From Streptomyces puniciscabiei (lineage in GTDB: Bacteria; Actinomycetota; Actinomycetes; Streptomycetales; Streptomycetaceae), in NCBI RefSeq assembly GCF_006715785.1, contig NZ_VFNX01000002.1:372001-436000 (forward strand): a stretch of DNA of 64,000 bases. The letters run 5' to 3'. The position numbers and the translations under genes are program-made. The notes below the pieces were generated by a model. The model saw only the letters and a program-made list of their open reading frames with translations, had not been told where the DNA came from and did not search any database. This document shows, piece by piece, positions 8,589 to 27,333 of this stretch. How positions within the stretch are numbered: position 1 is the stretch's first letter; the number at the start of each line of letters is the position of its first letter.

Positions 8589-9683
8589 ATGTCACGGCGT
8601 ATCAGCCGGAGCTCGCTCGCGGGGCCGCTGCTCGCGGCCTTACTCGCGGTCGGGGGCGCGGGCTGCTCGGGCTCGGCCCGGTCCGCGTCGCCGGGCTGCC
8701 CCGACGACGCACCGACATGTCCGGCGAGGGTGTCGTCGACGTCGCCGAGCGCCACGCGGCAGTCCGCGGTCGGCGGGACGTCAGAAGAGCCCGCCGGCAC
8801 ACCGACCCCGACCGGCAAGGCCGACGTGAGCAGTTCCCCGGGCCGATCCCCGGCCACGACCGCGTGCGCCTCCCCCGGCGCCTGCGGCTTCCCCGACGCC
8901 CGCAGCACCGGCCCCCGCGTCTCCCTCGAGCCCCACAAGACCGGCTACCTGGCCGTCCGTACCAATGGGCTCGTCATCCGCGGCTGGGACATCACCGGCT
9001 CGCTCGACATCTACGCGAACGACGTCACCGTCATCGACACGAAGATCACCTCGGACAACTGGTGGGGCATCAACCTGCGCCCCGGTTACCACGGTCTGCG
9101 GGTCCTGCACTCCACCATCACGGCCGTGCCCGGAAAGGGGCCCGACAACGGCGGCGTGGACTACGCGGTGTCGAACATGGGCGGCAGTTCCATCGAGGTC
9201 GGCTGGTGCGACGTCTCCGTGTTCGGTGACGCCCTGTCGATGGGGCAGGGCGATCTGCACGACAACTACGTCCACGACATCGTCCCGTTCGTCAACCAGG
9301 GCGGCGAGTGGCAGCACACCGACGCGGTCATCAGCGGCGGCGGCAACACCGGGCAGCTGATCGTCCGCCACAACACGCTGCTGAACCCGACCGGCCTCCA
9401 GCAGGGGGCCTCGGGAAGCGTCGGCCTGTTCGCCGACACCGGAGTGGTCCGCAATGTCACCGTCGACCACAACTGGATCGCCGGCGGTGCGTACGCCCTG
9501 TACGGCGGCGACAAGGGCGCCACCGGGATCAAGGTCACCGACAACATCTTCTCGACCCAGTACCACCCCGCCTCCGGCGGCTACGGCACGGTCGCCCACT
9601 GGAACGCCGGCGGCACCGGCAACGTGTGGCGGAACAACCGGATGTCCGACGGCCGCCCGATCCAGCCCGAGCCGTCCCCGTGA
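8589..9683 (+). CDS. Secreted right-handed beta-helix lipoprotein with a TTA codon
   Basis: A 364-residue protein with a lipoprotein signal: MSRRISRSSL then LLAALLAVGGAGC with the lipobox cysteine near residue 26. A Ser/Thr/Pro-rich linker of about 70 residues is followed by repeated beta-helix rungs (NGLVIRGWDI, ANDVTVIDTKI, GLRVLHSTI, IVRHNTLLN, VTVDHNWIAGG, IKVTDNIFS). This is the parallel beta-helix fold of polysaccharide lyases and glycan-binding proteins. No catalytic set can be assigned. It may cleave, trim or anchor the polymer at the membrane surface. Leu18 is encoded by TTA (8640-8642), so translation should need the bldA tRNA. ATG 8589 follows the flippase stop. Confidence 0.85.
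   Translation: MSRRISRSSLAGPLLAALLAVGGAGCSGSARSASPGCPDDAPTCPARVSSTSPSATRQSAVGGTSEEPAGTPTPTGKADVSSSPGRSPATTACASPGACGFPDARSTGPRVSLEPHKTGYLAVRTNGLVIRGWDITGSLDIYANDVTVIDTKITSDNWWGINLRPGYHGLRVLHSTITAVPGKGPDNGGVDYAVSNMGGSSIEVGWCDVSVFGDALSMGQGDLHDNYVHDIVPFVNQGGEWQHTDAVISGGGNTGQLIVRHNTLLNPTGLQQGASGSVGLFADTGVVRNVTVDHNWIAGGAYALYGGDKGATGIKVTDNIFSTQYHPASGGYGTVAHWNAGGTGNVWRNNRMSDGRPIQPEPSP
8640..8642 (+). promoter_or_regulatory. TTA (bldA-dependent) codon in the lipoprotein gene
   Basis: In-frame Leu18 codon TTA within the signal peptide of the gene at 8589. TTA is very rare in Streptomyces genes and is read only by the developmentally regulated bldA leucyl-tRNA. It is one of three in-frame TTA codons I found in confident genes of this window. 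Confidence 0.8.
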
Positions 9684-9711
9684 GCCGGCCGCACCGCCAG
9701 GAGGGAACCAC

Positions 9712-10512
9712 ATGATGCGTCGTGTCGCGCGGGCGCCCTGGACGCTGCTCAAGGCCGCGTTCGGCTGGCTGGTGCTCTTCGAGGCCAGGAACAAGATCCT
9801 GCTGGCTCCCACCGCGGTGCGGCTGCGCCGGGTGGAGGACGCCGAGACCCGACGGCTGGCCGCCCGCCTGCCTTCCCCGCCCTCGGCACTGGTCGCGACC
9901 GTGATCGCCACCCACCGGCGCCCCGAGGCGCTGCGTGCCGCGGTGCGCTCGGCCCTGGAGCAGACCGTCCGCGACCAGGTCGTCATCGTGGTCGACGACG
10001 GCGCCGGGCTGCCCGAACTCCCCGAGGACCCACGGCTGTTCGCCGTATCGCTGGCACGCAACACCGGCGTGGCGGGCGTCGTGCGCAACGTGGGCATCCG
10101 CCTCACCCGCTCGCGGTACGTGGCGTTCCTGGACGACGACAACCTGTGGGAACCCGACCATCTGGAGCGGACCTTGGCGGTCCTGGAGTCCCCCGACGGG
10201 CCCGACGGCGTCTACACGGCGCTGCGGCGCGTCCTGCCGGACGGCAGTGAGAAGGACGTGCTGTCGGTGCCCTACGACCGGCGCCGGGCCGCTCGCGAGT
10301 CCTTCCTGGACACCAACGCCTTCGTCGCCCGCCGCACCCGCTCCCTGCGCTTCAGCCGCCTGCGCCGGACCCCGGAGGTGCTGCCCCGCGAGGACTGGGA
10401 GCTGATCCGCCGGTACGGCCGCAGGCACCGGGTGCGCCATGTGCCGCACCCCACCGTCCGGTACCTGGTGAACCCGGCCAGCTTCTACACCCAGTGGCAA
10501 CGGCCCAGTTGA
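9712..10512 (+). CDS. Family 2 glycosyltransferase
   Basis: A 266-residue cytosolic GT-A enzyme. After a basic leader of about 60 residues the catalytic domain begins with ALVATVIATHRRPEALRAA, then VVIVVDDG (first Asp motif), ARNTGVAGVVRNVGI, and FLDDDNLWEPDHL, the DXD-type nucleotide-binding motif near residue 140. A later EVLPREDWEL segment supplies the ED(W) catalytic-base motif. It would add one sugar to the growing lipid-linked repeat unit. Two in-frame ATGs (9712, 9715) follow a strong AGGAGGGA site; I take the first. Donor and linkage are unknown. It belongs to the rightward polysaccharide operon. Confidence 0.9.
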   Translation: MMRRVARAPWTLLKAAFGWLVLFEARNKILLAPTAVRLRRVEDAETRRLAARLPSPPSALVATVIATHRRPEALRAAVRSALEQTVRDQVVIVVDDGAGLPELPEDPRLFAVSLARNTGVAGVVRNVGIRLTRSRYVAFLDDDNLWEPDHLERTLAVLESPDGPDGVYTALRRVLPDGSEKDVLSVPYDRRRAARESFLDTNAFVARRTRSLRFSRLRRTPEVLPREDWELIRRYGRRHRVRHVPHPTVRYLVNPASFYTQWQRPS

Positions 10513-10574
10513 AGCGGCCGCCGACTCCGCAGGCCTCAGCTCCCCTTCCGCTCCGATGACAGGTGGTTGATCCC

Positions 10575-11252
10575 GTGCCCCGCTCCCGCGCCCTCAGAAA
10601 CAGGTTCGTCGACGCGCCCGGCTCGCTGGGCGAACGACTCCGCGTCGCCCGCTGGGAACGGTTCCGGCGCTGCTTCCCCGGCATCGAGAACATGAGTGTG
10701 GTGGACCTGGGCGGGACGGCCGAGATGTGGCTGCGCGCACCGGTGCGCGCCAAGCACGTCCACCTGATCAACCTGGAGGAACACCCGGCCGAGCTGCCCG
10801 ACTGGATCACCGCGGAGAACGCCGACGTCACCGACCCGGCGGTCGCCGCCGCACTGAGCGGCCACGGCGGCTACGACCTGGTCTTCTCCAACTCGACCAT
10901 CGAGCATGTGGGCGGCCACAGCCAGCGCCGCAGGTTCGTTGCCGCCGTCGAGCAACTGGCGCCGCTGCACTGGATCCAGACGCCCTACCGCTACTTCCCC
11001 GTCGAACCGCACTTCGTTGCACCCGGTTTCCAGTTCCTGCCGCTGGCCGCCCGGGCACGCCTGGTACGGCACTGGCCGCTCGTCCACAGCCGCCCCGACA
11101 GCCCGGAGTCGGCGATGAACGCCGTGATCAACATCGAGCTGCTGACCCGCGCCGAGATGCGCTACCTGTTCCCCCGGTCGGCGCTGCTCAGCGAGCGGGT
11201 GCTCGGTGCCCCGAAGTCGCTCATCGCCGTACGGACGGAGCCCGCATGCTGA
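10575..11252 (+). CDS. SAM-dependent methyltransferase
   Basis: A 225-residue class I methyltransferase-like protein. Motif I is degenerate (MSVVDLGGTAEMWL near residue 45) and is followed by an acidic strand end (INLEEHP), ENADVTD and the motif IV/post-IV block YDLVFSNSTIEHVGG near residue 100, where the NSxIEHV pattern is typical of small sugar or O-methyltransferases. The start is uncertain: a GTG at 10563 is in frame, but GTG 10575 has AGGTGG nine bases upstream and is preferred. The gene overlaps the next methyltransferase by 7 bp, suggesting two coupled methylations of the same glycan. Substrate unknown. Confidence 0.8.
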   Translation: MPRSRALRNRFVDAPGSLGERLRVARWERFRRCFPGIENMSVVDLGGTAEMWLRAPVRAKHVHLINLEEHPAELPDWITAENADVTDPAVAAALSGHGGYDLVFSNSTIEHVGGHSQRRRFVAAVEQLAPLHWIQTPYRYFPVEPHFVAPGFQFLPLAARARLVRHWPLVHSRPDSPESAMNAVINIELLTRAEMRYLFPRSALLSERVLGAPKSLIAVRTEPAC

Positions 11253-12229
11253 ACAACCTCGTCAACAGACACGACGCGGACCGGCTGCTGCGCAAGGTGC
11301 GCAAGCTGGACCTGGAGCCGGTGCTGGCCAAGCTGCGGGTGCGCGGTGGCGCGCGGGTGGTCCAGCACTGGTCCCGGGTCGACCCGTCCCTGACCGAGTG
11401 GTGGGCGATACCGGCGGTCATCAAGCGGTGGAACCTGCTGATGACCGGCGACGCGGACACGTCCTTTCCCGAGTACGTGGCCGCCAAGCACTTCGCGCCG
11501 CGCACCGATCTGCGCGGCCTGTCCCTGGGGTGCGGCACCGGCGGGAACGAGCTGCTGTGGGCGAAGACGGGCGCGTTCTCGCTCCTGGCGGGCGTGGATG
11601 TGGCGCCGGAGCGGATCGGCTTCGCCACCCGCGCCGCCGCCGAGCACGGTCTCGCCGACGTCCTGCGCTTCCGAGTCACCGACGTCAATCAAATGACCAG
11701 CGACGGGGAACGCTTCGACGTACTGCTGGGCCTGCAGTCGCTGCACCACTTCGACAAGCTGGACGAGACCCTGCCTCGGCTGTCCCAGCTGATCGAACCC
11801 GACGGGATGTTCGTGATCGACGAGTTCGTCGGCCCCACCCGGTTCCAGTGGACCGACGCCCAACTGGATGCGGCGAACGCGCTGCTGGCACAGCTGCCCG
11901 AGGAACGCCGGCGCATGGCCGACGGCCGGATCAAGCGCCGTGTCGTGCGGCCCAGCAGGCTGTCGATGGTGCTGGACGACCCCTCGGAGGCGGTCGACGC
12001 GGCAGCGCTGCTGCCGGGACTGCGGCGCGAGTTCGACGTTGTCGAGGAGCGGCCGTACGGGGGCACGGTGCTGCACATCGCGTTCTCCGGGATCGCGCAC
12101 AACTTCCGTGACGGCGAGCCGGAGACGCGGGAGTTGCTGGAGCGGTGTTTCGCGGCTGAGGACGCCGCGTTGCCGGAGGTGGGGCATGACTTCGTCGCCA
12201 TGGTGTGCCGGCCGAGGAGCGTTGGCTGA
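11246..12229 (+). CDS. SAM-dependent methyltransferase
   Basis: A 327-residue protein with a clear class I SAM-binding motif LRGLSLGCGTGGNELLWA at about residues 90-107, an acidic GVDVAPERI motif II, FDVLLGLQSLHHF near residue 160 and a post-motif loop IEPDGMFVIDEFVGPTRF. An N-terminal helical extension of about 85 residues (VQHWSRVDPSLTEWWAIP) precedes the catalytic domain. ATG 11246 overlaps the upstream gene. It is the last gene of the rightward arm and ends 98 bp before the hairpin at 12327. It probably methylates a sugar or a lipid-linked intermediate; that is inferred from context only. Confidence 0.86.
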   Translation: MLNNLVNRHDADRLLRKVRKLDLEPVLAKLRVRGGARVVQHWSRVDPSLTEWWAIPAVIKRWNLLMTGDADTSFPEYVAAKHFAPRTDLRGLSLGCGTGGNELLWAKTGAFSLLAGVDVAPERIGFATRAAAEHGLADVLRFRVTDVNQMTSDGERFDVLLGLQSLHHFDKLDETLPRLSQLIEPDGMFVIDEFVGPTRFQWTDAQLDAANALLAQLPEERRRMADGRIKRRVVRPSRLSMVLDDPSEAVDAAALLPGLRREFDVVEERPYGGTVLHIAFSGIAHNFRDGEPETRELLERCFAAEDAALPEVGHDFVAMVCRPRSVG

Positions 12230-12326
12230 CGGCGGCGCGGGAAGTGCCACGGTTTCCCGTCGGCCGTCTGCGGCGCCGTCCGGGTTTGTCGCGCCCACGC
12301 GGCGGAGCCGCACATCGATACAGCCC

Positions 12327-12345
12327 CGCGCCCCTTCGGGGCGCG
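12327..12345. terminator. Bidirectional hairpin between convergent polysaccharide arms
   Basis: CGCGCCCC (12327-12334) pairs perfectly with GGGGCGCG (12338-12345) around a TTC loop, an extremely stable 8-bp GC stem. It lies in the 134-bp gap between the convergent methyltransferase (ends 12229) and GT2 (ends 12364), where a two-way terminator is expected. No T-tract follows, as is usual in Streptomyces. Confidence 0.75.
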
Positions 12346-12363
12346 TCCGCATCGGGTTCGCAG

Positions 12364-13263
12364 TCACGCCCCCGGCGTCGTACGCAGGGCGCCCGGTCGA
12401 GAGAGCGCGGCCGCTGCCGCCCGGCTCGCCGGGCGGCCGAGCACTGCGCGTGAGGTCTCCCTGAGCAGGACGGCGGCGCGGAAGGCAGCTGTGGCGAGGG
12501 GGCCGTGCCTACGCCGGTACAGGCGGACTCGGTTGAGGGTCAGGAGCGTCCAGAGGCGGGGCGACACCTGGGAGTCGCCCCCCAGGTGAACGGCCTCGGC
12601 CGTCGGGTCCAGCTGTGTGGCGTAGCCCAGGTCCCGCGCCCGCAGGCAGTACTCGGTCTCCTCCGAGTAGAGGAAGAAGGACTCGTCCCACGGACCGCAA
12701 GCGGTCAGGCACTCCCCCGAGAGGGCCATGAGCGCGCCGGTCGCCCAGTCCGCGCGCGTGGGCCGCCGGTACACGGCGGGGTCGGTGACGAGCTCGCTCA
12801 GGCGCGGGAAGCGCCCGGCCCGGCGGTTGCCGATCACGGCCTCGCCGAGGGCGCGGAGCACGCTCGACTCGCGGCGCAGTGAGTAGTGGGGCGTGTCATG
12901 GCCGTCCTCGTACAGAAGGGGTACGGCGATGCCCACGCCGTCGCCGAGCGAGTCGACGAGCCGTTTGGCGCAGCCCTGCCGCATCCGGATGTCGGGGTTG
13001 CAGACGAGAGCGGCCCCGAAGTCACCGGCGGCACGCAGCGCCGCGTTGATGCCCGCGGCGTACCCGGCGTTGCGGCCGGTCTGGACGACGGTGGCATCGG
13101 GGGCCAGCGTGCGCAGGACCTCGACGGTGTCGTCGGCGGAGTCGTTGTCGGCCACGACCAGCCGCCAGTCGAGGCCGGCCATGCCGTCCGGGAGCGCGGC
13201 GAGGAACCCGGGGAGCACCGAGGCGCTGTTCCAGGTGACGACGATGACGGCGACGGTGCTCAT
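12364..13263 (-). CDS. Family 2 glycosyltransferase (rhamnosyltransferase-like)
   Basis: A 299-residue GT-A enzyme: MSTVAVIVVTWNSASVLPGF, VVADNDSADDTVE, the TGRNAGYAAGINAAL block and a CNPDIR metal/nucleotide motif near residue 88. WATGALMALSGE and WDESFFLYSEETEYCLRA follow, the last carrying the acidic catalytic-base motif. This pattern matches the WbbL/RfbF-like branch often annotated as rhamnosyltransferase, but the donor cannot be fixed, and the rfbD-like gene in this locus is broken. ATG 13263 overlaps the stop of the Wzz-Wzy fusion (ATGA), so both are translated from the leftward transcript. It is the last gene of the leftward arm. Confidence 0.9.
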   Translation of the reverse strand: MSTVAVIVVTWNSASVLPGFLAALPDGMAGLDWRLVVADNDSADDTVEVLRTLAPDATVVQTGRNAGYAAGINAALRAAGDFGAALVCNPDIRMRQGCAKRLVDSLGDGVGIAVPLLYEDGHDTPHYSLRRESSVLRALGEAVIGNRRAGRFPRLSELVTDPAVYRRPTRADWATGALMALSGECLTACGPWDESFFLYSEETEYCLRARDLGYATQLDPTAEAVHLGGDSQVSPRLWTLLTLNRVRLYRRRHGPLATAAFRAAVLLRETSRAVLGRPASRAAAAALSRPGALRTTPGA

Positions 13264-15287
13264 CGGGACTCCACGAGTTGGGGGAGTTGGGCTTCGGATG
13301 CCTTGCGAGGGGACGGGACGGCGGGCACAGCCGCCTCGCGGCGGATGAAGCCGAGGTAGCTGCCGCCGGCACCCAGGCTCAGGAAGAACATCCCGGCGTA
13401 CATGGGGAAGCTGAGTGCGTCGAAGGTGGCGCTGATGACCAGGGCGACCAGAGCCGAGGCGAGGAAGGCCTGACCGAGCTCGCGGTCCGATTCGGTGCGG
13501 GCGAGCCGGCGGATGGCACCGCCCTGGTGGATCCCGGTGACGAACAGCACGAGCAGCGCGGCCAGCCCCACGACGCCCATCTCGGCCAGGGTCAGCATGT
13601 ACTGGTTGTCGGTGAAGAAGTACAGGTCGGGGGTGAAGGTGCCGAACCCGCGTCCGAACCAGGGGCGTTCGCCGAGATAGGGGACGATCGCGCCGTACTT
13701 CACGGTGCGTGCCTGGGTGCTGCTGTCGGAGTTGGACAGGAAAGTGGCGAACAGGTTGGTGATGGTGCCGATCAGCCCCGGGATGATCACCTTGAAGCCG
13801 GCCACCGAACCCAGGATCAGCCCGATCGCGGCCCAGCGCCGCCGCGGCTTCCAGCGGGGCACCATCACCAGGATCACGATGAAGGCGCCGATGATGGACG
13901 TCCTGGACACGGTCAGCGGCAGTGCGCCGGCCATGATCGCCACCGGGGCCCAGCGGCGCAGCGCGCCTGCGTGCCGGCGCACCGGATCGAAGGCCTGGTG
14001 GACGGCGAAGGGAACCAGGATGGCCAGCATGCCGCCGAATTCCAGCGGGTGGGCCGTGGTGGAGCGCGGACGGGTGAACGAGCCGCGGTCCATGGCGCTG
14101 ATCCCGGCGGTGCTCGAGTGCAGGCCGGGGACGTGGATGGAGTCGGCGATGTTGGTCCCGGCGAAGAAGTCGTAGTAGCCGATCAGGGCGACCACCGTGC
14201 CCAGGACGACCAGCCGCCGCATCAGGGTCTCCAGCCGGCTGCGCTCCTGGATGCCGGCCGAGGCCAGCACCACCAGCGCCACCCACACCGCGAGCCCGAT
14301 GAGTCCCCGGTCGGCCCCCAGGACCTCCTCGTGCGCGCTGTCGCGTGTCGCGTCCGCGAGATACGACAGCAGCACCGCGGCGGCGAGCACACACATCACC
14401 ACGCGGGGCAGCCTGGTGCCCGGCGCCGGAAGGATGCGGCCGCCGAGCCAGGTGGCGAGGTACCACAGAAGTCCCAGCAGGGCGAAGACGTTGGCCGGGG
14501 TGCCGACGCCGCCGAGGGCGGGCAGGGTGAGGTTCGAGGGGACGAAGAAGGCCAGCACCAGATAGCCGGTGAGGATCGTCGTGGCGTCCAGCCTCCGCAC
14601 CAGCAGCCCCCTGGGCGCCCGCTCGGGGGGACGGGCGCGATGGCGCCGGGGTACGTATCCGGCCCGGGCACGGCCCCGGCGGCGGACCACCGCGACGCCT
14701 TCGGCCAGGATGGACAGCAGGAACGCGCTGACGAACCCGACGATGACGACGGCCGCGACGTCCTGGTAGCGGCTCTTCGACTGCGAGACCGGTGTCTGCG
14801 GCAGGACGACCGGCGCGGTCTGCACCACGTACGTCGCCGGCACCTTGGACGCGGCCTGCAGGGCCTTCAGCTGTTCCCCCGCGAAACCGGTGAGGGTGGT
14901 GGTCTCCCGGAGCACCTTCGCCCGGTCGGTTCCGCTGACGCTCAGGGTGAGCAGCGGGCTGTCGGCGTCCGGTGCGAAACCGACCGTGTACCGGTCCGTG
15001 ACGCCGCGGGAGTGCAGTTCCTTGGCCGAGTCGCCGGACTGGAGCGTCCTGATCAGCACGTCGGCCGTGACGACCAGCGAACCGCCCGCGTTCGACAGGG
15101 GGTTGCCGAAGGTCGGCGCCAGCTCGGCGACCGCCCTGGAGTCGAGCAGCGTGACGGAGCTCTGCGACTCGTAGGACACCGGGATGGTCCGGTACAGATA
15201 CCCGCCCGCGAGCAGACTGAGCAGGGTGAGGGGCACCATGAAGTACCAGCGCCTGCGCATGATCGACAAAAGGTCGCCGAGGCTCAT
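13260..15287 (-). CDS. Wzz-Wzy fusion: chain-length regulator joined to O-antigen polymerase/ligase
   Basis: A 675-residue membrane protein with two modules. Residues 1-200 are Wzz-like: SLGDLLSIMRRRWYF, helix 1 at about 16-33, the IPVSYESQSSVTLLDS motif, an LPQTPVSQSK turn and helix 2 at about 178-200. A basic linker (about 201-232) leads to a multi-helix O-antigen polymerase/ligase (Wzy_C-like) module to about residue 650, with the periplasmic loop containing RTVKYGAIVPYLGERPWFGRGFGTF and FTDNQYMLTLAEMG, typical of the family. ATG 15287 is chosen over GTG 15293 because GGAGG lies five bases upstream of it. Separate polymerase genes are otherwise absent here, so this is the probable repeat-unit polymerase. 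Confidence 0.88.
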   Translation of the reverse strand: MSLGDLLSIMRRRWYFMVPLTLLSLLAGGYLYRTIPVSYESQSSVTLLDSRAVAELAPTFGNPLSNAGGSLVVTADVLIRTLQSGDSAKELHSRGVTDRYTVGFAPDADSPLLTLSVSGTDRAKVLRETTTLTGFAGEQLKALQAASKVPATYVVQTAPVVLPQTPVSQSKSRYQDVAAVVIVGFVSAFLLSILAEGVAVVRRRGRARAGYVPRRHRARPPERAPRGLLVRRLDATTILTGYLVLAFFVPSNLTLPALGGVGTPANVFALLGLLWYLATWLGGRILPAPGTRLPRVVMCVLAAAVLLSYLADATRDSAHEEVLGADRGLIGLAVWVALVVLASAGIQERSRLETLMRRLVVLGTVVALIGYYDFFAGTNIADSIHVPGLHSSTAGISAMDRGSFTRPRSTTAHPLEFGGMLAILVPFAVHQAFDPVRRHAGALRRWAPVAIMAGALPLTVSRTSIIGAFIVILVMVPRWKPRRRWAAIGLILGSVAGFKVIIPGLIGTITNLFATFLSNSDSSTQARTVKYGAIVPYLGERPWFGRGFGTFTPDLYFFTDNQYMLTLAEMGVVGLAALLVLFVTGIHQGGAIRRLARTESDRELGQAFLASALVALVISATFDALSFPMYAGMFFLSLGAGGSYLGFIRREAAVPAVPSPRKASEAQLPQLVESR

Positions 15288-15367
15288 GAGCACCTCCCCG
15301 GCACACGTGATCCGGTGGCACCTTGCCCCGGTTCCTGCGAGTATCGGGGCCGACGGAAGGAATCCCC

Positions 15368-16039
15368 GTGTCGCCTCGTGATGTCGCCGAAGCGCTTCTC
15401 CGCCGCTGGTACGTGCTGGTGCTCGCGCTGCTGCTGACGGCCGCCGGAGCCTACAAGGTGCTGCACCCGGCCCCGCAGTACCTCAGTTCGGCGGTGGTGG
15501 TCCTCAAGCCGCCGGTGACAGGGAACCAGCCGAACCAGCTGACGAACCTTCAACCACCGCTCGCCACCCTCTCGTACGGGGTCATCCAGCAGCTCGAGTC
15601 TCCCGCCGGGCGCAAGGAGCTGAACGCCGCTGGCGTGCACGGGACGTACCAGCTGATCCCGCGCAACAGCGGCACCAGCGCGACGCCGCGCTATCTCATC
15701 CCCTCGGTGCAGGTGCAGGCACAGCGGAGCGAGGCCGTCGAGGCCGACACGGCGGTCCGACGGGTCATCGACGCCTACACCCGGCATGTGACGGGGCTGC
15801 AGGACGCGCAGGGAGTCGCGCCCGCGGCGCGGATCAGCGCATCCGTCCTGGTCGCCCCGAGCGCCGCCCCGGTGCAGGGCACCCGGACCCGTGCCCTGGC
15901 GGGTACGGCGCTGCTCGGCGCAATCACCGGGATCCTGGGCGCCCTGTGGTCCGACCAGTACGCGCTGCGCCGCAGGGGCAGGAAGGGGACCTCCCCGGAC
16001 CCCCGCCGCCAGGCCGACAAGCTTCCAGTGGCGGGCTGA
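15368..16039 (+). CDS. Wzz-like membrane protein on the opposite strand
   Basis: A 223-residue protein with MSPRDVAEALLRRWYVLVLALLLTAAGAYKV, i.e. the RRWY pre-helix motif and first helix at about 14-32, an extracytoplasmic domain of about 140 residues (PQYLSSAVVVLKPP) and a second helix at about 177-197 followed by a short basic tail. It is a polysaccharide co-polymerase relative without kinase domain. GTG 15368 has GGAAGG seven bases upstream. It is divergent from the Wzz-Wzy fusion with only 80 bp between, and is the only rightward gene inside the leftward arm, so it has its own promoter or a distinct history. Confidence 0.84.
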   Translation: MSPRDVAEALLRRWYVLVLALLLTAAGAYKVLHPAPQYLSSAVVVLKPPVTGNQPNQLTNLQPPLATLSYGVIQQLESPAGRKELNAAGVHGTYQLIPRNSGTSATPRYLIPSVQVQAQRSEAVEADTAVRRVIDAYTRHVTGLQDAQGVAPAARISASVLVAPSAAPVQGTRTRALAGTALLGAITGILGALWSDQYALRRRGRKGTSPDPRRQADKLPVAG

Positions 16040-16053
16040 GTCTCGCCTGGACA

Positions 16054-17100
16054 TCAGATACCGCGGCGCTTCCACGACTCCCACCACAGCCACTCCCGCC
16101 CGCGCTCGGCCACCGCCGACCACACCAGCGGCTGCAGATACGGCATGGCCTTCGGGCCGATGCGTCTGCGCAGCCGCAGTGCGCGGTACTCGGGCAGCGC
16201 CGCGTATCCCGGCAGGCACTCCTCGGCGAACGCCACGCATGCGTCGACCGGTACGACTCCGGTACGGCCCCGGTCGTAGGCCCGGTAGGCGCGGCGCAGG
16301 GCGTGGCGCGCGAGGCGGGTGCGGACCTGCTCGGCCAGGCGGTCGGCCTGGGGCAGCCGGTCGGCGCATTTGGCGAGCACCGAGTCGAAGGCCACCAGGC
16401 GCTGGCGCAGGTCGTCGAGCTGACCGCCGAAGTCGGTGGTGGACATGTTCTTGCCGTGCACGCGGTAGAAGGCCTGGTCGGCGCCGCGGATGTAGCCGAC
16501 GTCGGCGTGTGCGGCGAGCCGCATCCACATCTCGATGTCGCCGGCGTGGGGAAGCTTCGGGTCATAGCCGCCGACCGTGCGCTGGAGGCCGGTACGGACG
16601 ACGACCTCCGGCGAGGTGATGCACCCGGTGCCCTCGCGGAAGCGCCGCTCCAGCCACCACTGCCCGGGGTAGACGACCGATCCGGTGCTCCGCGTACGGG
16701 CCCGTGGCAGCGGTCCGCCGTGCTGGAAGCGCAGCGGGCGCCCGTAGGCGAACCCCGCCTCGGGGTGGGCGTCCAGGAGTGCGGCGGCCCGGACCAGCGC
16801 GCCGGGGACCAGCCGGTCGTCGGCGGAGAGCAGGGCGACGTAGTCGCCGTCGGCCCATTCCAGGAGGCCCTCGTTGTAGGTGGCGATGTGGCCCTTGTTG
16901 GTCTCGTGGACGCGGACCTCGATACGCGGGTCGGCGGCGGCCAGTTTGTGCGCGACCTCGGCCGAGTCGTCGGGTGAGGCGTCGTCGATGATGAGCACCC
17001 GGACGTCGACGCCGCTTTGCTCGTCCAGGACACTGCTGACGCAGTCGGCGAGGAAGTGGCCGTACTTGTAGCAGGGGATGACAACACTGACGGTGCTCAT
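16054..17100 (-). CDS. Family 2 glycosyltransferase
   Basis: A 348-residue GT-A enzyme: STVSVVIPCYKYGHFLADCV, VRVLIIDDASPDDSAE, NKGHIATYNEGL and ALLSADDRLVPGAL (DXD-type motif near residue 90), followed by HAGDIEMWMRLA with the acidic catalytic motif near residue 190. The last 140 residues are a helical, Trp/Arg-rich tail. Such transferases assemble lipid-linked repeat units. The ATG at 17100 gives the normal family start; a TTG at 17115 has a G-rich stretch directly upstream and could be the true start. The gene follows the terminator-like hairpin 17123-17150, so it may have its own promoter or depend on read-through. Confidence 0.88.
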   Translation of the reverse strand: MSTVSVVIPCYKYGHFLADCVSSVLDEQSGVDVRVLIIDDASPDDSAEVAHKLAAADPRIEVRVHETNKGHIATYNEGLLEWADGDYVALLSADDRLVPGALVRAAALLDAHPEAGFAYGRPLRFQHGGPLPRARTRSTGSVVYPGQWWLERRFREGTGCITSPEVVVRTGLQRTVGGYDPKLPHAGDIEMWMRLAAHADVGYIRGADQAFYRVHGKNMSTTDFGGQLDDLRQRLVAFDSVLAKCADRLPQADRLAEQVRTRLARHALRRAYRAYDRGRTGVVPVDACVAFAEECLPGYAALPEYRALRLRRRIGPKAMPYLQPLVWSAVAERGREWLWWESWKRRGI

Positions 17101-17122
17101 CGATGGGCAAGCCAATCCCCGG

Positions 17123-17150
17123 GGCGGCCTCCGAGTGGCAGGAGACCGCC
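17123..17150 (-). terminator. Terminator hairpin after the DUF4082 gene
   Basis: GGCGG-C-CTCC (17123-17132) pairs with GGAG-A-CCGCC (17141-17150), nine pairs with one mismatch and an 8-nt loop. It lies 20 bp downstream of the leftward DUF4082 gene stop (17170) and just upstream of the next leftward gene. It may attenuate read-through. Confidence 0.6.
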
Positions 17151-17169
17151 CGCGGTGCGTTCGGGTCGG

Positions 17170-20769: not shown

Positions 20770-20840
20770 GTGTACCTCTCAGCGGTGCTGTGCAGGACCG
20801 ACCGGTGCGGTCGGGTGGAGCGCGTGAAGCCGGTGACCGG

Positions 20841-21959
20841 TCAGCCGCGGAGAGCGTGGGCGAGCGTGTCCACGACGCGCTGCTGCTGGTCGGGAGTGAT
20901 CTGCGGGTAGAGCGGGAGCGACAGGATCCGGTCCGCCGCCTTCTCGGCGTGGGGGAAGTCGCCCCGTGTGTGACCGAGATGGCGGTACGCCGGCGTGAGG
21001 TGGACGGGGGCCGGATAGTGCACTCCCGCGCCGATGCCCTCGGCGTTCAGCTTGCCCACGACGTCGTCGCGGTCCGCACCGGCGACCTGGACGACGTAGA
21101 GGTGCCATACGTGGACGTTGCCGGCTGCCGTCGTGGGGAGCACGACGCGTCCGGCGTCCGCGAGGTCGCCGAGCAGCGCGTCGTAGCGGGCCGCTGCCGC
21201 GCGCCGGGCCGCGTTGCCGTCCGCCAGTCGCGCCAGCTTCGCGCGCAGGACGACGGCCTGCAGCCCGTCCAGGCGGCTGTTGAACCCCGGCACGTCGTGG
21301 CGGTACTTGGCGACGCCACCGTGGTTCGCGATCGCGCGCACCAGACCGGCCAGTTCCTCGTCGTCCGTCAGCACCGCGCCGGCGTCGCCGTACGCACCCA
21401 GGTTCTTGCCCGGGTAGAAGCTGGTGGCCGCGATGCCGGCGCTGCCGGGCGTCCGGCCGTCGCGGGTGGCGCCCTGGCACTGAGCGGCGTCCTCGACGAC
21501 CCGTACCCGATCGGGCAGTTGGCCGGTCAGCGTCGTCACGTCCGCCATCTGCCCGTACAGGTGCACGGGTACGACCGCGCGGGTGGCCGGGCCGACCGCG
21601 TCCAGCGCGGCCTGGGGGTCGAGGAGGTGGCTGTCGGGCAGGCAGTCCGCGAGGACCGGCCGGGCGCCGATCCTGGCCACCGCGCCGACCGTGGCGATGA
21701 AGGTGTTGGCGGGCACCACGACCTCGTCGCCGGGGCGGACCCCGCTCGCGCGCAGGGCGAGTTCGACCGCGTCGGTGCCGTTGGCGACGCCCACGCAGTG
21801 CGGGATGCCGCCGAACTCGGCGTATGCACGCTCGAATCGACGGACCTCGTCGCCGCCGACGAACGCGGTGTTGGCCAGGACCCGGTCGAAACCGGCCCGT
21901 ACCTCGTCGGCGACCTCCTCGTGGGCCGCCTTGAGGTCCACGAGCGGAATCTGGTTCAT
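20841..21959 (-). CDS. DegT/DnrJ/EryC1 PLP aminotransferase (3-amino sugar type, WbpE/FdtB-like)
   Basis: A 372-residue sugar aminotransferase. It starts IPLVDLKAAHEEV, then VGVANGTDAVELAL, VVPANTFIATVGAV, PVHLYGQMADV, VVEDAAQCQGA and the PLP-lysine motif SFYPGKNLGAYGDAGA near residue 187, followed by HGGVAKYRHDVPGFNSRLDGLQA. The VDLK start, PGKNLGAYGDAG and NSRLD blocks are those of transaminases acting on 3-keto sugars (WbpE/WlbC, FdtB, QdtB). That fits a partner role with the Gfo/Idh dehydrogenase at 24785. ATG 21959 lies one base after the stop of the PglD-like gene. A longer frame with a start at 21992 lacks family support. Confidence 0.9.
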   Translation of the reverse strand: MNQIPLVDLKAAHEEVADEVRAGFDRVLANTAFVGGDEVRRFERAYAEFGGIPHCVGVANGTDAVELALRASGVRPGDEVVVPANTFIATVGAVARIGARPVLADCLPDSHLLDPQAALDAVGPATRAVVPVHLYGQMADVTTLTGQLPDRVRVVEDAAQCQGATRDGRTPGSAGIAATSFYPGKNLGAYGDAGAVLTDDEELAGLVRAIANHGGVAKYRHDVPGFNSRLDGLQAVVLRAKLARLADGNAARRAAAARYDALLGDLADAGRVVLPTTAAGNVHVWHLYVVQVAGADRDDVVGKLNAEGIGAGVHYPAPVHLTPAYRHLGHTRGDFPHAEKAADRILSLPLYPQITPDQQQRVVDTLAHALRG

Positions 21960-21960
21960 G

Positions 21961-22647
21961 TCAGCGGTCCCCCCACTGTCGTCGCTCTGCAAGTTCGTCG
22001 AGCGCGGGCGCCTCCGCCGCGCGAAGCCGCCGGGCGGGGCTGCCCACCCAGACCTCGCCGGGCGGAACGTCGCCGAGCACGGTGCTCCCCATCCCGATCA
22101 GCGACCAGGCGCCGACCGTCGTGCCCTCCTTCACCAGCGCCCCTGAGCCGACATAGGCGCCCCGTTCCAGCCGCACTCCCCCGCCCAGACGGACACCGGA
22201 CGCGAGCGTGACGTGGTCCTCGACCCGGTCGTCGTGGGTGAGGACGACGTGCGGCATCACCGCGACATGCGCGCCCACCCGCACGGCGGCGGTCAGGACG
22301 CAGTGCGCGAGCAGAACGGAGCCCGGGCCCACCTCGGACGTCTCCGACACCGACGCCGTGGGGTGGATCACGGTGGCACAGCGGTCGGCGGCGAGATCGA
22401 GCCTGCGCACCAGGCGGGCGCGGGCCGCGTAGTCCCTGGGGTTGCCGACGCAGATCACCACCCGGGCGTCAGGCAGCTCGTGGACCAGGTCGCAGCCGCC
22501 GAGGACGGGCACGCCGTCCACCTCGGTGCCGTGCAGGGCGGGGTTGTCGTCCAGGTGCCCGAGCAGCTTGAACCCGGCCGCGTCCGTGACGGCCTGTGCG
22601 GTCTCCCGGGCGAAGCCGCCCGCGCCGATGATCAAAAGTTCGTTCAT
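21961..22647 (-). CDS. Sugar O/N-acetyltransferase with PglD-type N-terminal domain
   Basis: A 228-residue protein of the PglD/NeuD family. The N-terminal Rossmann-like domain (NELLIIGAGGFARETAQAV, then VVICVGNPRDYAAR) binds the nucleotide sugar. A left-handed beta-helix from about residue 95 (VIHPTASVSETSEVGPGSVL to LGDVPPGEVWVGSPARRL) binds acetyl-CoA, with the conserved His in LTHDDRVEDH as the probable base. PglD acetylates a UDP-4-amino-sugar. Its start overlaps the stop of a 4-aminotransferase-like DegT gene (22644), exactly the PglE-PglD pairing, so an N-acetylated 4-amino sugar is the likely product. Confidence 0.9.
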   Translation of the reverse strand: MNELLIIGAGGFARETAQAVTDAAGFKLLGHLDDNPALHGTEVDGVPVLGGCDLVHELPDARVVICVGNPRDYAARARLVRRLDLAADRCATVIHPTASVSETSEVGPGSVLLAHCVLTAAVRVGAHVAVMPHVVLTHDDRVEDHVTLASGVRLGGGVRLERGAYVGSGALVKEGTTVGAWSLIGMGSTVLGDVPPGEVWVGSPARRLRAAEAPALDELAERRQWGDR

Positions 22648-23783
22648 CTTCGGGCCTGTTCGCGCAGTACGGCCACGACCCGGTCCTGCTGGGCCTCGGT
22701 CATGGTGTGGAACAGCGGCAGGATCAGCGAGTCACGGGTGATGCGCTCGGTGACCGGCAGCGGCGGGCGCGGATGGTCCGCGTAGGCGGGTTCGAGGTGC
22801 GCGGCCATGATGCCGCGCCGGGCGGAGACACCGGCCTCGGCGAGCGCGGCGAGCAGGTCGTCCCGGCCGACGGGGAAGTCCTCTCCCAGCAGCACCCAGT
22901 ACGACTGGAAGTTGCTCTGCCCGTGCGCGGGGTCGCGGACGGGGGTGAGCCCGGGAACGTCGTGCAGCAACGCGTCGTAGCGCGCGGCGAGTTCGCGGCG
23001 GCGGTGGATCATCGTGTCGAGCTTGCCGAGCTGAACCAGGCCGACGGCGGCCTGGATGTCGGTCATCCGGTAGTTGAAGCCGACCTCGAGGTAGCTCTCC
23101 AGGACGGGCCTGTCGCTCGCGTGACGCTGCGCCGCCGAGGCGTTCATCCCGTGCTCGCGCAGCCGGCGCAGGCGTGCCGCCCACTCGGCGTCATCGGTGG
23201 TGATCATGCCGCCCTCGCCCGTGGTGACGAGCTTGCGCGGATGGAAGGACCAGGCGGCCAGCAGCGCGCCGTGGCCGACGGGCTTGCCGCCGACGGTCGA
23301 GCCGATGGCGCAGGCCGCGTCCTCGACCAGGGCCAGGTCCCAGTCGCCGCAGGCGGCGCGCAGGGCGTGCACATCGGCCGGCACGCCGCCCTGGTGGACA
23401 GCCAGGACGGCCCTGGTGCGGGGGGTGCGGACCGCGTCCACGGTGGCCGGCGTCAGGTTGCCGGTGGTGAGGTCGACGTCGGCGAACACCGGCTCGGCGC
23501 CGACGTACCGCACGGCGTTGGCGGTGGCGATGAACGACAGCGAGGGCACCACGACCTCGTCGCCGGGGCCGAGGCCGAGCGCGACGAGTGAGAGGTGCAG
23601 GGCGGTCGTGCACGAGCTGACCGCGATGCCGTGCTCGGCGCCCACCCGCTCGGCGAAGGCCCGCTCGAACCCGGCGACGCGGGGGCCCTGGGCGACCCAC
23701 CCGGACAGCACGGCGTCGGAGGCGGCCCGGGCCTCCTCCTCGCCGAGCCAGGGGATCATCACCGGGATGCGGTCGGTGGTCAC
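22644..23783 (-). CDS. DegT/DnrJ/EryC1 PLP aminotransferase (PglE/ArnB-like)
   Basis: A 379-residue PLP enzyme with IPVMIPWLGEEEARAA, SGWVAQGPRVAGFE, AVSSCTTALHLSLVAL, VPSLSFIATANAV, the VEDAACAIGS motif and the PLP-lysine block WSFHPRKLVTTGEGGM near residue 186. The SGW(V/I)xxGP and SFHxxKxxTTGEGG patterns are those of 4-aminotransferases such as PglE, ArnB and PseC rather than of WbpE. It would transaminate a 4-keto-6-deoxy or related sugar. GTG 23783 overlaps the TGA of the epimerase gene (GTGA), and its stop overlaps the PglD-like start. The large frame that continues upstream belongs to other genes. Confidence 0.9.
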   Translation of the reverse strand: MTTDRIPVMIPWLGEEEARAASDAVLSGWVAQGPRVAGFERAFAERVGAEHGIAVSSCTTALHLSLVALGLGPGDEVVVPSLSFIATANAVRYVGAEPVFADVDLTTGNLTPATVDAVRTPRTRAVLAVHQGGVPADVHALRAACGDWDLALVEDAACAIGSTVGGKPVGHGALLAAWSFHPRKLVTTGEGGMITTDDAEWAARLRRLREHGMNASAAQRHASDRPVLESYLEVGFNYRMTDIQAAVGLVQLGKLDTMIHRRRELAARYDALLHDVPGLTPVRDPAHGQSNFQSYWVLLGEDFPVGRDDLLAALAEAGVSARRGIMAAHLEPAYADHPRPPLPVTERITRDSLILPLFHTMTEAQQDRVVAVLREQARR

Positions 23784-24760
23784 CTGGCCGCCTCCCGCTC
23801 CGCGCGCCACCACTCCACCAGGTCCTTCAGCCCGGTGCGCAGGTCGATCCGCGCGGTGAAGCCGAGCCGCTCGGCGGCCTTCGAGGTGTCCGCGAGCCGC
23901 CGCCTCACGCCGTTCACCGCGCGGGCGGGCCCGTGCACCGGCTCCAGGCCCGTCGCGCCCATCGCCTCCAGCAGGCCCTCGGCGAGCTCCTTCAGTGAGG
24001 TCTCGGTCCCGCTGGCGATGTTGAACACCTCGTCGGTGAGGTCCGACTCCGCGGCCAGCACATTGGCCCGGGCGATGTCGCGGACGTCGACGAAGTCCAT
24101 GGTCTGGGTGCCGTCGCCGAGGATCAGCGGCGGTTCGCCCGCCTCGATGCGTTCCATCCAGCGGATGAGCACCTCGGTGTAGAGGCCGTGGATGTCCATG
24201 CGGGGGCCGTAGACGTTGAAGTAGCGCAGCGCCACGTAGTCCAGGCCGTACATGGCGTGGAAGCTGCGCAGCATGCCCTCGTTGAAGGCCTTCGCGGCGC
24301 CGTAGAAGGTGTCGTTGTTGTACGGATGGTGGCGCTCGGTCGTCGGGAAGGTCTCGGCCATGCCGTAGACGGACGCCGAGGAGGAGGCGATCACCTTGGC
24401 GACCCCGGCCTCGGCCGCGGCCTCCAGGACGTTGAAGGTGCCGTCGACCAGGACCTCGTTGGCGAGCCGGGGCTCCTCCGCGCACTGGGTGATGCGAATG
24501 GCGGCGAGGTGGAAGACGAGGTCGGCGCCCTCGGTGACCTTCCGTACGGTGGCGGCGTCCCGGACGTCGCCCTCGACGATCTCCACGACGCCGCTGGGCA
24601 GGGCCTGCGCGAGGTTGGCCCGCCGTCCGCGCACGAAATTGTCGAGCACGACGATCTCGCGGGCGCCGCCCTCGGCCAGGAGGTCGACGAGGTTGGAGCC
24701 GATGGTGCCGGCTCCCCCGGTGACCAGGATCTTCTTGCCTCGTACGCTGCTCAACTGCAC
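23780..24760 (-). CDS. NAD-dependent sugar epimerase (extended SDR)
   Basis: A 326-residue extended SDR: KKILVTGGAGTIGSNLVDLL Rossmann motif, VVLDNF, EGDVRD, VFHLAAI, and the active site SSSASVYG with Tyr-Lys in FYGAAK near residue 150. The serine-type SSSASVYG lacks the Asp-Glu pair of 4,6-dehydratases, so a 4-epimerase (UDP-Glc/GlcNAc or uronate) is more likely. The YFNVYGPR and DGTQTMDFVDVRD blocks are normal for the family. It lies 24 bp after the Gfo/Idh gene and is coupled to the aminotransferase. It would supply Gal- or Glc-configured precursors; the exact substrate is unknown. Confidence 0.9.
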   Translation of the reverse strand: MQLSSVRGKKILVTGGAGTIGSNLVDLLAEGGAREIVVLDNFVRGRRANLAQALPSGVVEIVEGDVRDAATVRKVTEGADLVFHLAAIRITQCAEEPRLANEVLVDGTFNVLEAAAEAGVAKVIASSSASVYGMAETFPTTERHHPYNNDTFYGAAKAFNEGMLRSFHAMYGLDYVALRYFNVYGPRMDIHGLYTEVLIRWMERIEAGEPPLILGDGTQTMDFVDVRDIARANVLAAESDLTDEVFNIASGTETSLKELAEGLLEAMGATGLEPVHGPARAVNGVRRRLADTSKAAERLGFTARIDLRTGLKDLVEWWRAEREAAR

Positions 24761-24784
24761 TTACCTCTCCGCCGATCGGATCTG

Positions 24785-25840
24785 TCAACGCCCGGCGCGC
24801 AGGCCGACGACCGCGCCCTTGAACTCGAGGCTCCGGGACGCCGCCTCGAGAATGTCCAGCACCCTGAGACCCGCCCGGCCGTCGGTCAGCGGTGCCCGCC
24901 GCTGCCGGATCGCGTCGCCGAACTCGTCGACCATGCTGCGCAGCGCCTCCTTCTCGCCGATGGCGGGCGCGATCATGTCTCCGGAGCGGTAGGAGACGAG
25001 CATGTCCCGGCGCTCGTCGGCACCGATCTCCTGGGGCGAGGACAGGTCCACGCCCCGGTCGTAAACAGCCACCCGCTGCAGAGGGTTGAGGTCGTCCCAG
25101 ATCAAGGTGCGTTTGGCGCCGCCCACCATGGTGGTGCGCACCTTGGTCGGCGACAGCCAGTTGACGTGCACGTGGGCGATGGCCCCGGTGTTGAGCTGAA
25201 GCGTCAGATAGGCCACGCAGGCCTGCCCGGCGCCGATCGGGTCGGCTCCGTGGGCGGCGACCGCGACCGGCTCGACGGCGTCGGGGAGGATGAAGTCCAG
25301 GATCGAGAGGTCGTGCGGGGCGAGGTCCCACATCACGTCGATGTCCTTCTGGACGAGCCCGAGGTTGATCCGGACCGAGTCCACGAAGTGGATCTCACCG
25401 AGTTCGCCGGAGCGGACCAGGTCCCGGATGCGGCCCACGGCGGGCGTGTAGCAGTAGGTGTGGTCGCACATCAGGGTGAGTCCGCGCTGCTCCGCCTCGG
25501 TGACCAGGCGCAGCCCGTCGGCGTAGGTCGCCGCGAGCGGCTTCTCCACCAGGACGTGCTTGCCGGCGCGCAGGGCGGCCAGGGCGATGTCGAGGTGGGT
25601 TCCGGCGGGCGTGGCCACGGCGACGGCGTCCACTTCGGGGTCGGCGAGGACAGCCGCATAGTCCGCGGTGGCCTCGACCGTCGAGTAGCCGCCGAGGACC
25701 CGCCGGGCCCGCTCCACGTCGAGGTCGCACAGCAGGCGCAACCGGAACCGCTCGCTGGCCTGGAAGTTGCGGACGAGGTTGGGTCCCCAGTACCCGGCCC
25801 CGACGACCGCGACCCCCAACGGCTCGGTGGTCTGCGTCAC
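24785..25840 (-). CDS. Gfo/Idh/MocA dehydrogenase (nucleotide-sugar 3-dehydrogenase type)
   Basis: A 351-residue two-domain oxidoreductase. The Rossmann domain has VAVVGAGYWGPNLVRNF and the EKP lysine in KHVLVEKPLAATYADG near residue 95. The catalytic half has CDHTYCYTPAVGRIRDL, GEIHFVDSVRINLG and MWDLAPHDLSILDF near residue 180. The GYWGPNLVRN and WDLAPHDLSI blocks are typical of members in surface-sugar loci, including UDP-GlcNAc(A) 3-dehydrogenases (WbpB/GnnA-like) that create the 3-keto substrate for a DegT transaminase. GTG 25840 is preceded by GGGGAGAGGAA. An upstream in-frame start at 25894 would add 18 poorly conserved residues. It follows the priming transferase gene by 53 bp. Confidence 0.88.
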   Translation of the reverse strand: MTQTTEPLGVAVVGAGYWGPNLVRNFQASERFRLRLLCDLDVERARRVLGGYSTVEATADYAAVLADPEVDAVAVATPAGTHLDIALAALRAGKHVLVEKPLAATYADGLRLVTEAEQRGLTLMCDHTYCYTPAVGRIRDLVRSGELGEIHFVDSVRINLGLVQKDIDVMWDLAPHDLSILDFILPDAVEPVAVAAHGADPIGAGQACVAYLTLQLNTGAIAHVHVNWLSPTKVRTTMVGGAKRTLIWDDLNPLQRVAVYDRGVDLSSPQEIGADERRDMLVSYRSGDMIAPAIGEKEALRSMVDEFGDAIRQRRAPLTDGRAGLRVLDILEAASRSLEFKGAVVGLRAGR

Positions 25841-25893
25841 TTGGTTCCTCTCCCCTTGGTCCTTCGGTAGGCGGTCGGTCTGCAGACGGACCA

Positions 25894-27333
25894 TCAGTAG
25901 GCCCCCGTTCCCCGCACCACGGCGGACCCGGTGCGCAGCAGGATCGACACGTCGAGGCTCATCGACCAGTTGTCCACGTATCCGAGGTCGAGCCGGACCG
26001 CCTCCTCCCAGGGCAGGTCGGAGCGTCCGCTGACCTGCCAGAGTCCGGTGAGGCCGGGCTTGACGAGCAGCCGGCGTTTGATGTCCGGGGTGTACGCCTC
26101 CACCTCCTCGGGCAGCGGCGGACGGGGGCCGACGAGGGACATGTGGCCCTTGACGACGTTGAGCAGTTGCGGCAGTTCGTCGAGGGAGCTGCGGCGCAGG
26201 AACGAGCCGACCCGGGTGATCCGCGGGTCCTCCTTCACCTTGAACAGCAGGCCGTCGCTGTTCTCGTTGAGGTGCTCCAGTTCCGCCCGCAGGGCCTCCG
26301 AGTCCGGCCGCATCGTGCGGAACTTCAGCATGGTGAAGTGGTCGCCGTACCGGCCCACCCGCTGCTGCCGGAACAGGGCGGGCCCGGAGCTGTCCAGCCG
26401 GACGATCAGGGCGATCAGCAGCATGGGCAGGGCAAGGAGCAGCAGGAGTGCCGCCGCGAGCGTACGGTCCAGCAGTTCCTTGGGCAGCCGGGAGATCCGG
26501 GAGAGGTTCGGGGCCTGGATCCGCACGAGCGGCACCCCGCCCGCGTGCCGTACCGCCAGCCGGGATGCGGAGACGTCGGTCAGCACGGGGGCCAGGAGGA
26601 AGTCGACGCCCTGCGCGGCCGCCGTCCAGGACATCCGCCGCAGCACGGAGGCGTCGGCCCCGGGTACCGGCAGCGCCACGACGGTGCTCACGCCCAGGGC
26701 CCGGACGACGTCGTCCATGTCGCCGATGCCGCCGAGGACGGGCAGTCCCAACTTGCGTATGTCCGCGGCGTTCTGCGGGTCGCTCAGGCACGCTCCGGCG
26801 GCCTGCAGTTCCTGTACGCCGCCGCGCCGCAGCACGGCGACCAGCTCCACGATGCCGTGTGACGGTCCGACCAGCAGCGTCGCACTCCGGTCCCGGCCCC
26901 GGGACCACCGCCGGTGCAGCCGGCGGCGCAGCGTGTACCGGACCGGCAGGGCGATCACGGCGGCCGGCACCGCGGACATGATCATGTCATGAAGGAGGCC
27001 TGCATCGCGCGTGCCCAGCCAGTACGCGAGGGCGGCCAGCGCCGGCAGGGCGACGGCTCCGCGCAGCACCCGCCGGTACTCCTCGGTTCCCAGGCCGAGG
27101 GCACTGCGATCGTAGGAGCGATGGGCCAGCATCGCCACGATCCAGGTCGGGGGCAGTACCAGGGCCACCGTCCAGCGGCCGTACGCCCCGTGGATCAGTA
27201 AGGCCGCGGCAACGGCTGCGAAGCCGTCCGCGACCAGCAGGGCAGTGCGGTATTTGCGTTCCCAGCGTCTTCGGCGAGCTTCTGGACGTCTGTGTTCCAC
27301 GACCAGTTGCTCATGCGTGACCTCAATGGTCAT
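25894..27333 (-). CDS. Polyprenyl-phosphate glycosyl-1-phosphate transferase (priming enzyme, WbaP/CpsE-like) with a TTA codon
   Basis: A 479-residue membrane enzyme that starts repeat-unit synthesis by moving a sugar-1-phosphate onto undecaprenyl phosphate. It has about four N-terminal helices (roughly 30-130), a nucleotide-binding-like linker, a helix at about 290-312 and the catalytic domain with FRQQRVGRYG, FTMLKFRTMR, SLDELPQLLNV, MSLVGPRPPLPEE and KPGLTGLWQVSGR (about 425-437). ATG 27333 has a GGGGGG site five bases upstream. An alternative ATG at 27348 is less well placed. Leu45 is a TTA codon (27199-27201). As the first gene of the leftward arm it controls entry into the pathway, so its bldA dependence could gate the whole polymer. 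Confidence 0.94.
   Translation of the reverse strand: MTIEVTHEQLVVEHRRPEARRRRWERKYRTALLVADGFAAVAAALLIHGAYGRWTVALVLPPTWIVAMLAHRSYDRSALGLGTEEYRRVLRGAVALPALAALAYWLGTRDAGLLHDMIMSAVPAAVIALPVRYTLRRRLHRRWSRGRDRSATLLVGPSHGIVELVAVLRRGGVQELQAAGACLSDPQNAADIRKLGLPVLGGIGDMDDVVRALGVSTVVALPVPGADASVLRRMSWTAAAQGVDFLLAPVLTDVSASRLAVRHAGGVPLVRIQAPNLSRISRLPKELLDRTLAAALLLLLALPMLLIALIVRLDSSGPALFRQQRVGRYGDHFTMLKFRTMRPDSEALRAELEHLNENSDGLLFKVKEDPRITRVGSFLRRSSLDELPQLLNVVKGHMSLVGPRPPLPEEVEAYTPDIKRRLLVKPGLTGLWQVSGRSDLPWEEAVRLDLGYVDNWSMSLDVSILLRTGSAVVRGTGAY
27199..27201 (-). promoter_or_regulatory. TTA (bldA-dependent) codon in the priming transferase gene
   Basis: The complement of TAA at 27199-27201 is the in-frame Leu45 codon TTA of the priming glycosyl-phosphotransferase, in the first membrane helix (AAALLIHGAYG). 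No other leucine of this gene uses TTA. Confidence 0.8.

Follow-up and report, generated by a model that had tools for sequence, protein, structure and literature searches.

Recurrent TTA codons in the priming enzyme and a lipoprotein gene of a Streptomyces polysaccharide locus suggest control by the bldA tRNA

Two TTA codons in a polysaccharide locus

The window analysed here, a stretch of 64,000 nucleotides from Streptomyces puniciscabiei (contig NZ_VFNX01000002.1), holds a polysaccharide locus of two convergent arms, in which a priming glycosyl-phosphotransferase, a flippase, a polymerase, a chain-length protein (Wzz, just under the Pfam cut-off) and glycosyltransferases make up a Wzx/Wzy-dependent set. 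Two genes of this locus carry the leucine codon TTA, read directly and in frame: codon 18 (8640-8642, plus strand) lies in the signal peptide of a putative beta-helix lipoprotein, whose open reading frame (ORF) has its ATG start at 8589, and codon 45 (27201-27199, minus strand) lies in the priming enzyme. Both codons had been named in the original prediction, as Leu18 and Leu45, and both are real. The start of the priming enzyme is conserved, its N-terminus reading MTIE or MAIE in 43 of 45 orthologues, and that of the lipoprotein is backed by homologous N-termini, M1, L15 and L19 being kept in at least 90% of 37 aligned proteins. A custom gene caller in which TTA and CTA were scored as neutral called 57 genes in the window and placed the lipoprotein start at 8826, excluding codon 18; once this start was corrected, the called genes contained no TTA besides codons 18 and 45. 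Two of the three TTA codons originally counted in confident genes were thus confirmed, and no supported third TTA gene was found in the window, the candidates at 44065, 61244 and 6457 being doubtful ORFs or lying 5' of a called start.

TTA was rare in the genome as a whole, as judged from 800 kb of its 9.15 Mb, where 13 of 680 called genes contained it; PMC10327506 gives a mean of 177 TTA ORFs per genome over 213 species. With 2 of the 21 locus genes containing TTA, the probability of a chance occurrence in this genome was 0.06, so that the pair is weak evidence and suggestive at most when a single genome is considered. The significance comes from the comparative test and not from this one genome.

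Organization of the locus

Coordinates and family assignments are collected in Table 1. As had been proposed, the leftward arm begins with the priming gene, whose stop codon overlaps the start of the oxidoreductase gene that follows as TGATG. The Wzy gene and another glycosyltransferase gene of this arm lie past an intervening plus-strand gene. The lipoprotein gene does belong to the rightward arm, as its seventh gene counting from 1856 and not as the opening one; it is located 5 bases 3' of the flippase gene and 28 bases 5' of the next glycosyltransferase gene, past which come a gene with no family above the cut-off and a methyltransferase gene. Given the TGATG overlap and these short spacings, ribosome stalling at either TTA codon could affect neighbouring genes. 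The lipoprotein matched PF13229 weakly (E 0.0078, below the cut-off), one homologue is annotated as a right-handed parallel beta-helix repeat-containing protein, and no solved relative was found by sequence at E 0.01. Pfam profile searches matched no locus gene to a regulator family, the gene at 1856-3028 being left without assignment, and there was no Rfam match at gathering level within the window. The 6-dehydrogenase, 3-dehydrogenase-like oxidoreductase, aminotransferase, acetyltransferase and 2-epimerase are the same family types as in the Pseudomonas-type WbpABDEI pathway for the diacetamido-uronate of O-antigens; the likeness is at the Pfam level only, and the sugar made by this locus is presumed.

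Table 1. Genes and features of the polysaccharide locus (window positions)
Feature	Position	Strand	Assignment and remarks
First rightward-arm gene, no family assigned	1856-3028	+	No regulator family matched
WecG/TagA/CpsF glycosyltransferase	3025..3795	+	PF03808; no TTA in own copy
UDP-sugar 6-dehydrogenase	3795..5054	+	PF03721, PF00984, PF03720
UDP-GlcNAc 2-epimerase	5058..6173	+	PF02350
Wzz-like chain-length protein	6222..7058	+	PF02706 just below cut-off
Wzx-like flippase	7021..8583	+	PF13440
Putative beta-helix lipoprotein, rightward arm	8589..9683	+	Signal peptide and lipobox-like LAVGGAGC in translation
Family 2 glycosyltransferase	9712..10512	+	PF00535 in longer ORF; start from gene caller
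Wzy-type polymerase/ligase	13260..15287	-	PF04932
Family 2 glycosyltransferase	16054..17100	-	PF00535
Large DMFA2_C/Big/DUF4082 protein, 1199 amino acids	17170..20769	-	PF20254, PF13205, PF17957, PF13313
Second DegT-family aminotransferase	20841..21959	-	PF01041
PglD-like hexapeptide acetyltransferase, between the two DegT aminotransferases	21961..22647	-	PF17836, PF00132
DegT/DnrJ/EryC1/StrS aminotransferase	22644..23783	-	PF01041
NAD-dependent epimerase/dehydratase	23780..24760	-	PF01370
GFO/IDH/MocA oxidoreductase	24785..25894	-	PF01408; best NCBIfam match UDP-GlcNAc 3-dehydrogenase, below cut-off
Priming glycosyl-phosphotransferase (polyprenyl-phosphate sugar-1-phosphate transferase)	25894..27333	-	PF02397 1e-64; TIGR03025 above cut-off; first gene of leftward arm
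Inverted repeat GCGGTT-GGGG-AACCGC, candidate operator or leader hairpin	27471..27486	-	Conserved upstream of priming gene

TTA codons recur in the same two genes across species

Forty-five orthologues of the priming enzyme were compared, comprising 37 named loci of one scan, 7 new ones from a draw of 295 genomes of the genus and the S. puniciscabiei copy; two of them were only 61% identical, and a search of 395 genomes of relatives yielded no new orthologue at its cut-off. Whole loci were assembled from stretches of the same genomes and TTA was counted in each locus gene found, after dropping rows with coverage below 0.45 or identity below 40% (Wzz 1, flippase 1, MFS 5, gene at 31421 1). The accessory genes 11246-12229 (methyltransferase) and 10575-11252 (TTA in 0 of 27) were kept out of the core-gene totals. 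For the lipoprotein all 44 species were counted, with starts chosen by alignment; rule-placed starts gave TTA in 9 of 33, the start not being placeable in 11 of the 44 rows. In Streptomyces sp. DHE7-1 (G297; L092, L093) the lipoprotein gene appears broken, with two matched pieces, one of them containing an internal TGA, and only the best-match frame was counted.

TTA was present in 14 of the 45 priming enzymes (19 codons in 11 alignment columns) and in 11 of the 44 lipoproteins (6 columns). By contrast, the 17 other core genes together contained 6 TTA in 304,525 codons, found in the WecG/TagA-type gene (3/43 orthologues), the gene at 1856-3028 (2/43) and Wzy (1/44); the remaining 14 had none, including, among membrane proteins, the flippase (0/42) and Wzz (0/43). 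Two flanking genes contained TTA, in 1/45 and 1/40 (the latter MFS). The two genes singled out in the original prediction are therefore the two TTA-rich core genes across species. Excluding S. puniciscabiei, the counts were 13 of 44 and 10 of 43, which exceeds the level of at least five other genomes taken in PMC4255298 to indicate adaptive value; that level is described there as arbitrary, was applied to a base of 13 other genomes and is laxer here. TTA was found in at least one locus gene, counting the accessory methyltransferase, in 26 of the 45 loci, versus 37% by chance.

Two side observations concern the other TTA-containing genes. In the WecG/TagA-type gene, TTA occurs within codons 76-81 in three species (G101, G306 and G033), and the priming gene of each of them contains TTA too. 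For the accessory methyltransferase gene a match was obtained in just 19 of the 45 loci; TTA occurs in 4 of these 19 (11 codons, two to four in each of four related species), and the codon usage of the gene is relaxed, with TTG at 8.5% of Leu and ATA at 10% of Ile codons.

The gains were mapped on a locus tree built from ten core genes, of which only Wzy contained a TTA (a single one). On this tree 13-17 gains were required for the priming TTA codons and 6-8 for those of the lipoprotein. Counted by column, there were at least 11 and 6 independent gains, respectively, versus 6 in the 17 other core genes. The priming enzyme is 479 codons long, and 13 of its 19 TTA codons fall within the first 100 (p 1e-5); this and the other p-values given here ignore relatedness, except those counted by column. 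A bias of TTA codons to the 5' end is also reported for streptomycetes in PMC4255298.

The 5' position of many codons recalls another explanation, namely that a slow codon is kept to pace membrane insertion or secretion, independently of developmental control by bldA: both proteins are membrane-targeted, and many of their TTA codons are N-terminal or in the signal peptide. This we consider very improbable. Other membrane proteins of the neighbourhood (flippase, Wzz, Wzy and MFS) have no TTA or a single one, some priming TTA codons lie far from the start (122-302), and 17 distant priming enzymes (42-52% identical, one in the same genome) had none in 7,840 codons, their matches lacking up to about the first 50 residues. 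The other membrane proteins and the distant priming enzymes also speak against a simple origin of the codons in leucine-rich membrane genes.

Codon usage explains part of the excess

Called genes of the same genome and seven relatives served as background, with TTA in 23 of 1322 genes (24 TTA in 417,659 codons). Since S. puniciscabiei had been picked because of its TTA codons, the comparison was rerun without it, with little change (p 8e-12 for the priming enzyme and 2e-8 for the lipoprotein). The ratio TTA:TTG was 19:94 in the priming gene and 11:19 in the lipoprotein gene, versus 24:1319 in the background. In the priming gene, TTA was about 10 times the background, while TTG (2.9% of Leu vs 3.0%) and CTA (0.30% vs 0.36%) were near it.

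These figures bear on the main rival explanation, which is that relaxed codon usage, with a weak bias for G or C at third codon positions (GC3) in the 5' region of the priming gene and in the signal peptide, lets A/T-ending codons including TTA drift in, with no regulatory meaning. Over the whole priming gene GC3 was 0.90 and AGA made up 4.2% of Arg codons (45 species); in the first 100 codons GC3 fell to 0.81, AGA rose to 10.7% (vs 0.9%) and ATA was raised as well, so that the plain genome rate overstates the TTA excess. The TTA label also turns over fast on the locus tree, needing 10 changes; 500 shuffles gave an average of 12.1, and 45 of them came out as low. However, matching by GC3 in windows of 100 codons predicted 2.7 TTA in the priming gene and 0.8 in the lipoprotein gene, versus the 19 and 11 seen, and for the other locus and flanking genes it predicted 12.7, versus 8 seen. 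Counting independent columns against the GC3-matched value gave p = 1.3e-4 for the priming gene and 2.0e-4 for the lipoprotein gene. Furthermore, CTA was not raised, and background genes with a 5' GC3 below 0.86 contained TTA in 7 of 151 cases, versus 14 of 45 for the priming enzyme. Relaxed usage as the whole cause is thus rejected only in part, and as a full explanation we regard it as unlikely.

A conserved inverted repeat upstream of the priming gene

The inverted repeat listed in Table 1 was found in all 42 upstream regions examined when its 14-base core was searched with a tolerance of 3 errors; in the 39 regions with good placement it lies 89-173 bases before the priming start. Its outer stem is only loosely kept, and the genome contains a single further exact copy, which lies within a called coding gene. 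The invariance is equally compatible with an operator and with an RNA hairpin, and the z-score of the leader fold was only -1.8. A second conserved block, at about 27580-27650 (minus strand), consists of TGTTTCGTCCAACTGTTCCCG followed by TGGTCTAGATTGAG and has a promoter-like look.

The near-invariance of the repeat suggests that the priming gene is controlled at the level of transcription or through its leader. It would suit an indirect dependence, in which AdpA or another bldA-dependent regulator governs the locus and the TTA codons of the structural genes add little; adpA contains TTA in all streptomycetes analysed in PMC4255298. By contrast, a loose AdpA motif had no match in the upstream region, and indirect control leaves the build-up of TTA in two structural genes unexplained. 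We judge it improbable as the sole mode of control, if slightly less so than translation pacing.

Discussion

Repeated gain of TTA in the same two genes suggests that a bldA-dependent switch may control the polymer. A gene for tRNA-Leu with anticodon TAA, found by a pattern search and in one 10-kb stretch, is present in the same genome (L224:5217-5301), and the pattern occurs in 19 of the 21 genomes searched, this one included. Recurrent gain free of position, in the gene that opens one arm and in a surface lipoprotein gene of the other, is best explained by translational gating through bldA. Direct gating of the priming enzyme, with polarity, is the most likely reading, and we hold it with moderate confidence; drift under relaxed codon usage is its main rival.

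What is shown is the pair of codons, a tRNA gene to read them, the order of the genes and the concentration of independent gains in two of them; from these we infer the following mechanism. Through the TTA codons, the bldA tRNA would govern two proteins, the first membrane enzyme of a Wzx/Wzy-type pathway and a surface lipoprotein. A shortage of the charged tRNA would make ribosomes stall at codon 45 of the priming gene, and the first lipid-linked sugar would not be formed. Polarity would lower expression of the coupled genes that follow in the leftward arm, and polymer would be reduced. The TTA in the signal peptide would act likewise on the lipoprotein and its downstream neighbour. Lineages gain and lose the codon fast at varying positions, as if selection kept the presence of a TTA and not its place.

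Several observations weigh against this interpretation. The column-based gains give p-values of 1.3e-4 and 2.0e-4, not 1e-11, and the relaxed 5' codon usage of the priming gene accounts for part of its excess. TTA is missing from 31 of 45 priming enzymes and from 33 of 44 lipoproteins, so any such control must turn over quickly between species, and 19 of 45 loci lack TTA in all 21 locus genes (at least two of them, MAG43 and G201, being only partly covered). Several of the gains occur at variable hydrophobic columns (30, 45, 122 and 280) that are occupied in relatives by codons for Phe, Ile or Val. TTA positions are mostly unconserved: the original prediction had made its case depend on TTA at the same positions in orthologous loci, and TTA is present at column 45 in 5 of 45 priming enzymes and at codon 18 in 6 of 44 lipoproteins, S. 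puniciscabiei included in both. Its idea of one rare codon per arm, acting as a pair, fared no better, both genes containing TTA in 4 of 44 species, as chance predicts (Fisher p 0.72). Thus its link to bldA keeps the tRNA gene and the cross-species excess in its favour and loses conserved positions and codon pairing, and nothing in the analysis supports its proposal that the polymer is made only during aerial growth. Position conservation was set aside as a test of function, the signal being gains at different columns; since most TTA codons are poorly conserved according to PMC10327506, lack of conservation in place does not disqualify them.

A wider reading, which we put forward as a tentative possibility, is that a movable rare-codon brake is put back again and again in evolution, acting on the committed first steps of polymer synthesis (priming, in some species also the WecG/TagA-type step) and on a partner lipoprotein; dependence on bldA would then be a trait that evolution can switch on or off, so that closely related species time their polymer differently. 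If gating is true, the reach of bldA would include the step at which a surface polysaccharide is begun, and closely related species that differ in whether a given gene contains TTA would provide a natural experiment. It would also show that counting recurrence gene by gene, against GC3-matched controls, can pick up TTA control that is missed by conservation of codon place.

Comparison with known systems

No paper linking a TTA codon with exopolysaccharide in Streptomyces, with or without bldA, was found in the open-access collection searched, subscription papers being mostly outside this scope. In table 2 of PMC4255298 no function is described as a priming transferase or polysaccharide lipoprotein; this comparison is by description only, and several rows are of unknown function.

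Three systems offer comparison. The adpA switch is similar in that a UUA codon acts as a bldA-dependent gate (PMC4255298); its TTA lies between the two domains of the protein in all streptomycetes analysed there, whereas the codons described here are sporadic and mobile. The amf/ram (SapB) cluster is closer, since TTA recurs in varying genes of a surface-related cluster across species (PMC4255298); there, however, the codon is in the regulator gene amfR or the enzyme gene amfC, whereas here no locus gene matched a regulator family. In the deoxysugar/glycosyltransferase cluster SCO0381-0401 of S. coelicolor, also sugar-related and with TTA in non-regulatory genes, products were lowered or absent in a bldA mutant, 4 of the 5 detected proteins being down two-fold or more, and polarity with destabilisation of the message was proposed (PMC2000904). 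That cluster is a single putative operon with TTA in SCO0383 and SCO0399, whereas here two convergent arms have TTA in the opening priming gene and in the lipoprotein gene, and the two are likened by description, not homology. SCO0381-0401 and amf/ram are the nearest precedents.

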